10,740 nucleotides of DNA from Calditrichota bacterium (lineage in GTDB: Bacteria > Calditrichota > Calditrichia > RBG-13-44-9 > J042). Position numbers and translations under genes: made by a program. Shown piece by piece: positions 1 through 9,382 of this stretch (the stretch's first letter is position 1; each line of letters opens with the position of its first letter). The DNA lies in the NCBI GenBank assembly GCA_013150955.1, contig JAADJD010000058.1, positions 1-10,740 of the forward strand, written 5' to 3'. The notes beneath the pieces are model-generated. The model was given only the letters and a program-made list of their open reading frames with translations. It was not told where the DNA came from and did not search any database.

Positions 1-703
1 CAGCCGGTTGCTTTTGGTAGTTTTTCTGATTCCTTCGCATGGGAGTAATCAAGAACAGGCGATTCTCTTCAAATAATTCCAGTTGCAAGGGATTGCTCAG
101 GTAAGCTCGATCTCCCAATAGAGTACAATTCGGGTAATAATGGCGAATATCTTTAAAATACTCAATATCATGGACATGGGCTTTAGAGAGATCAAAATGA
201 GTCATAACGCCGTTTACAGTAGCAACCCCATGAAGTTTATAACCAAAGTAAGGTTGATTGTGAGCCGCACAATAGCCGAAACTGGGTGCGCTTTGATAAT
301 CTTCTCTGCAGATTCGCGCTCTTTTTGCCCGAGAGAATCGTACGATTGGCAGAGGCATGGAATCAATGAGAAAAGAGTTTTTATGTTTCACAAGTTGTTC
401 CACTATATGGATGCGAAATTTCTCGATTAAATGGTGAAGTTGTTTTCTTCGGCGATTGAAGCGGGAGCGTTCAATTAAGTTAGGGAATTGTTCTTTGTAA
501 TTATTATGCAACAACTTGAATAAACAGTTTTCACTGTCAATCATCAGACTCTCGGAAAGCAGACTCAGGGCAATGACTTCCACATCGGAGAATTTCGGTT
601 TTTTGCTTCGTCTGGGTAAATTTCCGTCCGGATCAAGAAGATTCTTTAAAAATTGTTTGACAATGGCTGAAATTTTGTCGAACTTATTACGGAGATTGTG
701 CAT
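1..703 (-). CDS. IS982-family transposase, 3' end beyond the window
   Basis: The minus strand is open from the ATG at 703 to the window edge, giving 234 residues. IS982-family transposases are usually around 300 aa, so the C-terminus lies outside. A DDE (RNase H-like) transposase is supported by the first catalytic Asp (D114) in LIDSMPLPIVRFSRAKR and the second (D198) in LLGDRAYLS. Both sit in the context typical of IS982, and an N-terminal RSRFNRRR segment is also typical of the family. The third catalytic residue (Glu) would fall past the edge. The start follows an AGGGA ribosome-binding site with 8 nt spacing; an ATG at 708 is out of frame. No frameshift or stop interrupts the visible part, so the gene may be intact. 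It is AT-richer than the metabolic genes, as expected for an acquired element. I translated this by hand codon by codon; the family call rests on motif recognition. Confidence 0.88.
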   Translation of the reverse strand, partial: MHNLRNKFDKISAIVKQFLKNLLDPDGNLPRRSKKPKFSDVEVIALSLLSESLMIDSENCLFKLLHNNYKEQFPNLIERSRFNRRRKQLHHLIEKFRIHIVEQLVKHKNSFLIDSMPLPIVRFSRAKRARICREDYQSAPSFGYCAAHNQPYFGYKLHGVATVNGVMTHFDLSKAHVHDIEYFKDIRHYYPNCTLLGDRAYLSNPLQLELFEENRLFLITPMRRNQKNYQKQPA

Positions 704-740
704 GGCATTATTCCCTGTTTTTGTTAACTTTATCAACTCA

Positions 741-769
741 ATTATAAGGAAATATAATGCCATTGCCAA
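741..769 (-). promoter_or_regulatory. Promoter of the IS982-family transposase
   Basis: Read on the minus strand there is a -35 TTGGCA (769-764) and a -10 TATAAT (746-741) with a 17-bp spacer. That is 5/6 and 6/6 to the sigma-70 consensus. It lies between the IS end at 781-797 and the transposase start at 703, giving a leader of roughly 30 nt. Confidence 0.6.
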
Positions 770-780
770 TCTACTTTTTT

Positions 781-797
781 ATTAGCACAACGGGTTA
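781..797. repeat. Terminal inverted repeat of the IS982-family element
   Basis: The 17-mer ATTAGCACAACGGGTTA lies upstream of the transposase promoter, where the left end of the IS is expected. Its exact reverse complement occurs at 934-950, and a near copy occurs at 1140-1157 as the right end of the MITE-like element. The outermost base is uncertain by a few positions because no target-site duplication can be tested with the other IS end missing. The DNA between this end and the MITE (798-933) is AT-rich with no gene; only short weak hairpins are visible, for example around 872-890. Confidence 0.65.
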
Positions 798-933: not shown

Positions 934-1157
934 TAACCCGTTGTGCTAATTCAGGATAAAGCAGGTATTTAGAAAAACCGTTAAAACGGTTAATCATCAA
1001 TTGATTATGTTATCCATTTCTCCTGGCCGAAGCCAGGAGTTAATAGAAATTATCACTCATTAACACCCAGATTTATCTGGGTGGATAACTCCTATAGTAA
1101 CAATAATTTATAGAACTGTTTTAACGGTTTGTGTTGTCTAATTCGCACAACAGGTTA
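934..1157. mobile_element. MITE-like non-autonomous element with IS982-type ends
   Basis: The element is about 224 bp. Its left end TAACCCGTTGTGCTAATT (934-951) and right end (1140-1157) are inverted repeats matching at 16 of 18 positions. The left end repeats the IS982-type end at 781-797 exactly in inverted orientation. No ORF is inside. A second, inner inverted repeat (975-991 with 1114-1130) matches at 16 of 17. Further in are hairpins at 976-991 (AACCGTT stem) and 991-1007 (TAATCA stem), and a branched structure at 1009-1089. No target-site duplication is clear. The simplest reading is a miniature element moved by the neighbouring type of transposase; a structured RNA gene or protein-binding array is the alternative. 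Confidence 0.65.
1009..1089. other. Three-way-junction fold in the MITE-like element
   Basis: An 8-bp outer stem, GTTATCCA (1009-1016) with TGGATAAC (1082-1089), encloses two hairpins. The first is CTCCTGGC (1020-1027) with GCCAGGAG (1032-1039) and a CGAA loop. The second is CACCCAGA (1064-1071) with TCTGGGTG (1076-1083) and a TTTA loop. The second hairpin competes with the outer stem for two bases. All three stems are perfect, which is unlikely by chance in 80 bp. The fold works equally well in DNA or in RNA from either strand. Confidence 0.6.
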
Positions 1158-1257
1158 TTTTTATTTATGTTAATTCGTGTAATTCGTTGTTTTATGCATA
1201 ATCCGGGTTTATTTGTGTTCATTCGTGTCATTCACGGTTCAATGCACTATTTGGGTT
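1155..1257 (-). repeat. Intergenic palindromic repeat, copy A (arms only)
   Basis: This reads as the reverse complement of the left arm of copies B-D (a TTATTTTTAT tract, then ATTCGTG-type steps, then TATGCATAATCCGGGTTT), followed by a second arm ending CACTATTTGGGTTAA. The core of the repeat is missing on the left, where the MITE-like element ends, suggesting the MITE landed in or beside this copy. The flank at 912-933 resembles the repeat core only weakly. Confidence 0.6.
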
Positions 1258-6700: not shown

Positions 6701-6764
6701 TCAGCCGGTGCCTTCTTGCATTGGCCCACGAATGACCCGCATTCACACGAACAAAAGAACATTG

Positions 6765-6990
6765 AACCCAGATTATGCGTTAGCCTACGAATTACACGAA
6801 TGAACACCAATAAAAATAATAAACACAGATTATGCATTAAACCACGAATTGCACGAATTAACACAAATAAAAATAATCAGATACATTGGATTAGATCTGA
6901 ATGAAAATTTGTTTCGGGGTATATTCGTTATTTTATGGATATGGTTTGGTTTCATTTGCGTAATTCGCGGTTTAGGGCATTATTTGGGTT
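6765..6990 (+). repeat. Intergenic palindromic repeat, copy C (left arm duplicated)
   Basis: The left arm occurs twice in tandem with a 56-bp period, starting CCCAGATTATGCG at 6768 and CACAGATTATGCA at 6824. A decayed third arm may lie at 6725-6760 (CCCACGAATGACCC, then CACACGAAC). The core with ACATTGGATTAGATCTGAATG (about 6882-6902) follows, and the right arm TTCATTTGCGTAATTCGCGG ends TTATTTGGGTT at 6990. A short open frame across the arms (6644-6904) translates only the repeat and is not a gene. Confidence 0.75.
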
Positions 6991-9158: not shown

Positions 9159-9382
9159 AAACCCAGATTATGCAGTAGCCTACGAATTACACGAATGAAC
9201 ACCAATAAAAATAATAAAATGCACTGGATTCTATCTGAATGAAAATGTTTCCCGGGACATATTCGCTATTTTGTTGATTTTTTCGAATTCATTCGCGTGA
9301 TTCGCGGTTTAATGCTTTATTTGGGTTAATTACATTTGTGTCCATTCGTGTCATTCGTGTTCGAATGCATAAATCGGGTTAA
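9159..9382 (+). repeat. Intergenic palindromic repeat, copy D (right arm duplicated)
   Basis: The left arm begins AAACCCAGATTATGCAG, with ACGAAT at 9182 and 9191 (9-bp step). The core around 9222-9270 has CACTGGATTCTATCTGAATG. The right arm TTCATTCGCGTGATTCGCGG ends TTATTTGGGTT at 9327. A second arm (9328-9382) carries ATTCGTG at 9344 and 9353, again 9 bp apart, and ends GCATAAATCGGGTTAAA. The repeat lies between two convergent genes. The 90 bp on each side of it (9066-9158, 9383-9473) hold no gene and no convincing terminator. Confidence 0.75.

Follow-up and report, generated by a model that had tools for sequence, protein, structure and literature searches.

We describe a 220-bp miniature inverted-repeat transposable element (MITE) in a 10,740-nt stretch of a Calditrichota bacterium genome (GCA_013150955.1, contig JAADJD010000058.1; hereafter the window). 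Judged from its sequence, the element is probably a MITE mobilised by IS982-family machinery that carries a captured unit of four hairpins of RAYT type, making it a chimera in which IS982 ends enclose cargo of the kind seen in RAYT and repetitive extragenic palindrome (REP) systems. It is an unusual joining of known kinds in one element, namely an IS982 MITE, REP/RAYT hairpins and insertion targeted at a repeat. We found no earlier description of such a joined element in the literature searched, which was mostly that available without subscription.

Searching the window's own genome assembly (G000; 4.07 Mb, 66 contigs) recovered about 40 copies of the MITE at 78–92% identity, and about 48 once contig-end fragments and further partial copies were counted, with both ends present in 22. 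The count may be an underestimate, because many G000 contigs terminate within a copy. The segment is multicopy rather than single, in agreement with a first-pass annotation of the window that had proposed a MITE sharing its ends with the adjacent IS982-family element and had called for a genome search. Boundaries coincide among the copies as that annotation expected, but lie 2 bp inside the positions 934 and 1157 it gave. Flank alignment places the mobile unit between ACCC and GGGT and assigns the TA on each side to target or flank sequence, because the target duplications of other copies lie outside ACCC/GGGT. Such duplications border most intact copies; in 14 of the full-length copies with both flanks they are 7–10 bp long with at most one mismatch, unique examples including GAGGTTT, AATGTTAA, CAATTTT, AATTGTATTT and AAACAATGA. 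The MITE contains no open reading frame of 60 aa and so has no coding capacity.

The transposase next to the MITE matches NF033520 at 176 bits (cut-off 130), as well as PF01609. Members of the IS982 family have ends of the form AC(N)6T(N)5TT and generate target duplications of 2–10 bp (PMC7335449); in the alignment of copies, the MITE terminal repeats ACCCGTTGTGCTAATT and ACCYGTTGTGCGAATT both conform to this pattern, and the duplication lengths fall within the family range. The outer inverted repeats relate to the insertion sequence (IS) end at 781–797 as first described: the left repeat is identical to it and the right repeat differs at two positions. Alignment of the MITE with the resident IS982 found likeness only at the ends (15 and 13 bp) and chance-level words inside. 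MITEs usually originate by internal deletion of their IS. Because only the ends are alike, such an origin is unsupported for the resident IS982, and the alignment rules out the interior as a deletion derivative of it; another parental IS is possible. An interior from the parental IS is not required by the MITE definition quoted in PMC3733652. By its ends and duplications the MITE is assigned to the IS982 family, despite an interior unlike that of the resident IS982, and it would be mobilised by an IS982-family DDE transposase.

The interior of the family consensus consists of four hairpins (P5, A, B and P3; Table 1) with stems of 7, 9, 9 and 7 bp and 2-nt loops, successive hairpins starting at intervals of 43, 44 and 50 nt. 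In the consensus P3 is the reverse complement of P5, so the two are able to pair. The inner 17-bp inverted repeat noticed earlier (975–991/1114–1130) is present at 94%, and each arm on its own forms a hairpin of 7 bp with a 2-nt loop. In the window copy, hairpin A has a C.A mismatch at the loop. The sequence folds far better than dinucleotide shuffles, both as DNA (z −8.9) and as RNA of either strand (z −10.4 and −8.4). What is kept among copies is the set of four hairpins and the outer repeats. The first-pass annotation had also named hairpins at 976–991 and 991–1007 and a three-way junction with perfect stems. The former hairpin is kept among copies; the latter has all five pairs in only 2 of 33. 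The junction stems are perfect in the window copy and not in the others: all eight pairs of the closing stem (1009–1016/1082–1089) occur in 1 of 35 copies, and its pairing (0.76, against 0.80 under simulated neutral drift) is not above the neutral level. Copy number and, after the 2-bp correction, boundaries therefore bear out the earlier description, while the 991–1007 stem and the closing stem of the junction are not preserved.

We then asked when the constraint on the hairpins acted. MITE copies diverge by 3.4% in hairpin stems and outer repeats versus 9.3% elsewhere (p 1e-6). Singleton variants were taken as mostly mutations after insertion, and shared variants as mostly changes propagated by transposition. 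Shared variants were 4.7-fold rarer in hairpin stems (8 in 64 sites vs 74 in 125 elsewhere, p 2e-10), and constraint was seen in all four hairpins, whereas singletons were equally frequent (0.0154 per site-copy in stems vs 0.0157 elsewhere, p 1.0). On a tree of the full-length copies, internal branches carried 1–2 changes in stems versus 35 elsewhere. Read plainly, these patterns suggest that the constraint was felt mainly while the element spread: copies whose hairpins were broken failed to multiply, and landed copies decay with little or no constraint. Constraint on propagated variants and not on singletons points to a role in mobility and away from a function at insertion sites. The earlier idea that the branched interior was selected for structure thus survives for the four hairpins, where constraint is real, and fails for the two named stems that are not kept. 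Compensatory double changes, which that annotation had suggested checking, were not in excess of chance among the genome's own copies (RNAalifold and star-tree simulation); homologues from other genomes showed a few double changes in stems, too few to score.

The hairpins point to a source outside IS982. We searched 40 genomes across the class, identifying RAYT genes by Pfam Y1_Tnp. The palindrome AACCGTTNNAACGGTT occurred 53 times in G000, 54 in G033, 38 in G004 and 12 in G001, with 0–1 occurrences of the reversed control, and all but one of the 53 exact palindromes of G000 lie within MITE copies. Hairpins of this type flank a Y1_Tnp (RAYT) gene in five genomes (G035, G025, G033, G004 and G005). 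Four of these five RAYTs form a supported clade (95/94); a wider RAYT group, with hairpin loops of 0–2 nt (short T-NN-A or loop-less), has weak support (83/46). The RAYT of G035 is framed by four-hairpin units of the same 7-9-9-7 design with 2-nt loops, complete downstream and repeated upstream, in which hairpin starts are 41–44 nt apart save for one longer upstream spacer. The simplest account would be that a four-hairpin unit of RAYT type was captured between IS982-type ends. The single Y1_Tnp gene of G000 belongs to another clade and is accompanied by 3-nt-loop hairpins, so the genome shows no cognate RAYT; with clade and hairpins both different, maintenance of the MITE hairpins by this protein is ruled out.

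Several further observations concern these hairpins and their surroundings. The only RAYT of G000 (L158, G000:C35:3278-6479) sits between 393-bp tandem repeats rich in CCCCACGC-NNN-GCGTGGGG and TTTTGTCC-TTC-GGACAAAA hairpins. G001, of the same family, holds 12 AACCGTT palindromes, among which are several pairs spaced 66 nt apart, and no Y1_Tnp gene was found in this genome, which is 89% complete. Near-perfect palindromes of 40–43 nt, TTCTCATTAACACCGGG..CCCGGTGTTAATGAGAA, occur in G033 and G035 (L133 1531-1573, L134 1237-1276), and have the spacer TTCTCATT..TTAACACC in common with the MITE interior.

Elements with the same ends were also found in relatives. G036 carries a full element of 247 bp with no clear duplication (G036:C501:4252-4498), and G035 a hairpin-packed one of 438 bp with the duplication TAAAGTA (G035:C18:4240-4677). 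An IS982-ended element of 270 bp in G024 (contig C141; L128 412-681) is bordered by a 7-bp duplication, TATATTT, and its four hairpins differ in sequence type from those of the MITE, with GTTCC-TAT-GGAAC and CGTCCT-GTA-AGGACG among them; this difference suggests that hairpin units were captured repeatedly. Two homologues are less complete: that on G036:C45 retains the left end, P5 and hairpin B and is missing hairpin A, and that on G026:C196 has three hairpins with double changes in their stems and no IS982 ends that we could see. In the G036:C501 element (L112 1432-1678) an extra hairpin, CTCCC..GGGAG, lies within the loop of the 5' palindrome. The exact MITE core had no match in GTDB contigs, and a looser scan of them for end plus palindrome returned one contig, from a Calditrichota metagenome-assembled genome, with the left end and the palindrome.

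Insertion of the MITE is strongly focused. Of 65 testable MITE flanks, 57 lie in a 165-bp repeat, here called HR, with unequal inverted ends CCCAGATTATGC.. and CCCAAATAAAGCG... About 40 of these fall at HR positions 43–56, with the MITE in either orientation, and the usual duplication, AAAAATA, corresponds to HR 46–52. HR is abundant, one of its end types occurring 584 times in G000 at up to three mismatches (control 0), and is itself MITE-like, with 5-bp duplications in 10 of 28 copies versus 11% in mispaired flanks. One reverse nesting was found, a MITE copy interrupted by HR with the duplication ATAAA (L021, G000:C15:17158-17562). A MITE that inserts at one site of another MITE-like repeat, and is in turn interrupted by it, is less usual than the known targeting of REP elements by insertion sequences. 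In the window, HR sequence lies at 1156–1257, 6755–6990 and 9162–9325, and G002, a genome of the same genus, has an HR match at one place only.

Table 1. Features of the window, with positions counted from its first nucleotide
Feature	Position	Strand	Basis or remark
IS982-family insertion sequence, cut by contig start; transposase 2-703, terminal repeat 781-795	1..795	-	NF033520, PF01609, ends
MITE, 220 bp, ACCC...GGGT	936..1155	.	copies, boundaries, target duplications outside ACCC/GGGT
Left terminal inverted repeat ACCCGTTGTGCTAATT	936..951	+	fits IS982 consensus AC(N)6T(N)5TT; first 15 bp identical to window IS end
Hairpin P5, AACCGTT-AA-AACGGTT, 7-bp stem, 2-nt loop	976..991	.	palindrome widespread in class and beside RAYT genes
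Three-way junction of the first-pass annotation, 81 bp	1009..1089	.	closing stem 1009-1016/1082-1089 complete in window copy only
Hairpin A, CTCCTGGCT-GA-AGCCAGGAG (left arm CTCCTGGCY), 9-bp stem in family consensus	1020..1039	.	
Hairpin B, CACCCAGAT-TT-ATCTGGGTG, 9-bp stem, 2-nt loop	1064..1083	.	related hairpins beside RAYT genes in G025, G035
Hairpin P3, AACYGTT-TT-AACGGTT (AACCGTT form also), 7-bp stem	1114..1129	.	
Right terminal inverted repeat, ACCTGTTGTGCGAATT on minus strand	1140..1155	-	same IS982 consensus
Partial HR (HR positions 52 to 1), rest missing on left side of window MITE copy	1156..1207	-	
Complete unoccupied HR copy, target AAAAATA intact	9162..9325	+	

Taken together, the data are consistent with the following mechanism. 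An IS982-family DDE transposase would recognise the ends of about 15 bp, ACCCGTTGTGCTAAT, and make the 7–10 bp target duplications; between those ends would travel the four-hairpin unit, of the kind that flanks one RAYT clade in related Calditrichota; and insertion would occur mostly at the 7-bp AAAAATA within the abundant HR, in either orientation. Copies, ends, duplications, target, hairpin conservation and the likeness to RAYT-flanking architecture are all read directly from the sequences, and from them we infer movement by IS982, an interior derived from a RAYT unit and the importance of the hairpins for spread. Folding of single strands into hairpins may help the element itself in transposition or establishment and do nothing for the host at the landing site, a proposal to which we give slightly less than even chances. 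The hairpins might affect DDE transposition if single strands folded at the replication fork and so brought the ends together; alternatively, they might reflect an earlier RAYT partner.

Other explanations attribute less, or something different, to the hairpins. They could be inert filler of a plain IS982 MITE, the low shared variation merely reflecting a few master copies that chanced to keep them. IS982-family-derived MITEs are indeed known (Cardinium, PMC9769881), and the chance-level compensatory change among copies also speaks for this account. However, stem sites hold 8 shared variant types where the rate outside them would predict about 38, the constraint extends to every one of the four hairpins, and the same-ended elements of G035, G036 and G024 are hairpin-packed too; we regard this account as unlikely. 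A hybrid mobility, in which a RAYT (HUH) protein acted on the hairpins alongside IS982 on the ends, as could have happened in an earlier host that had a cognate RAYT, would suit hairpins of the type flanking one RAYT clade that were maintained during spread. It is rather improbable, given that the only RAYT of G000 belongs to another clade with different hairpins and that duplications of 7–10 bp fit DDE and not HUH chemistry. The claim that spread needs two transposase chemistries, IS982 (DDE) on double-stranded ends and either a RAYT-type HUH protein or single-stranded folding on the core, seems to us similarly doubtful.

A benefit to the host fares worse. A structured RNA or a bidirectional transcription barrier, with the folded RNA stabilising or ending neighbouring transcripts, would accord with the very stable fold on both strands, and such a role has been proposed for some transcribed MITEs (PMC3733652). 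Against it, scans of the MITE found no terminator-like site, no excess of promoters and no Rfam match, singleton mutations are not reduced in stems, and most copies are nested in HR, making this role very improbable. The earlier suggestions of termination in both directions and of a stable RNA accordingly lose ground, the former for want of any terminator-like site and the latter with neither an Rfam match nor an excess of compensatory changes among copies. Least credible is the three-way junction as a functional recognition structure: the window copy does fold into it perfectly, but the state of the closing stem in the other copies contradicts it, and we give it almost no weight.

Some results count against an IS982-mobilised MITE with captured RAYT-type hairpins. 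The G000 assembly shows no intact IS982 transposase, the window copy being truncated at the contig end and the only other copy frameshifted; nor was an IS982 transposase found in the relatives that hold same-ended elements, some of whose genomes are incomplete. The window copy of the MITE lacks a target duplication and its left flank differs from the usual target, on which grounds it has probably been rearranged since insertion. Terminal tree changes are about halved in stems (0.48–0.52 vs 0.95–0.97 per site), so that some constraint after insertion is possible. The hairpin type stands beside only 5 of the 33 Y1_Tnp loci examined, and the use of palindromy to pick hairpins beside RAYTs involves some circularity, a difficulty from which the homologues found by similarity (L110, L111 and L112) are free. 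Finally, no GTAG or CGTC tag adjoins the four hairpins in the consensus. REPs are defined by such a tag at one palindrome end (PMC3733652); because the tags are absent, we call the interior RAYT-type and do not count it among the REP superfamilies described there.

Each component has precedents. The IS982-derived MITE of Cardinium (PMC9769881) is likewise a small non-autonomous derivative multiplied within one lineage, but the present MITE matches its resident IS982 over 13–15 bp only and has RAYT-type hairpins inside. REPs and REPINs of RAYT systems (PMC2817692, PMC3116915) are short-palindrome arrays of the sort found flanking Y1/HUH transposase genes; the present element differs in having four hairpins without the GTAG/CGTC tag and IS982 ends with target duplications, and in residing in a genome that shows no cognate RAYT. 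For Anabaena variabilis GTAG-15 and other REP dimers in longer palindromes (PMC3733652), a regular embedding of REP-type hairpins in a different inverted repeat is described, although the passage describing them assigns the surrounding palindrome to no transposon, whereas the ends here belong to a named IS family, are accompanied by duplications and are shared by several genera. ISPpu9 and ISPsy8 are among the insertion sequences already known to target REP elements, and resemble our MITE as mobile elements inserting in an abundant extragenic repeat (PMC1525189); our MITE, in contrast, goes to a MITE-like repeat of 165 bp and itself carries REP-type hairpins.

The targeting of one site and at least one reverse nesting show that this genome is home to two MITE populations that interact. 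Bacterial MITEs are commonly regarded as pared-down insertion sequences whose interiors are passive, and the route by which REP hairpins spread is still to be settled. In the present case, a hairpin unit of REP type appears to ride within the ends of a transposon unrelated to it, and no cognate RAYT was found in the genome. The hairpins stayed intact during spread and not evidently later, which would make selection for mobility separable from selection for host function within one data set. If the two-chemistry hybrid were true, the same-ended, hairpin-packed elements in four genera would represent a recurrent class of such hybrids. Being small and well delimited, the element also lends itself to deletion experiments on what hairpins contribute to DDE transposition.
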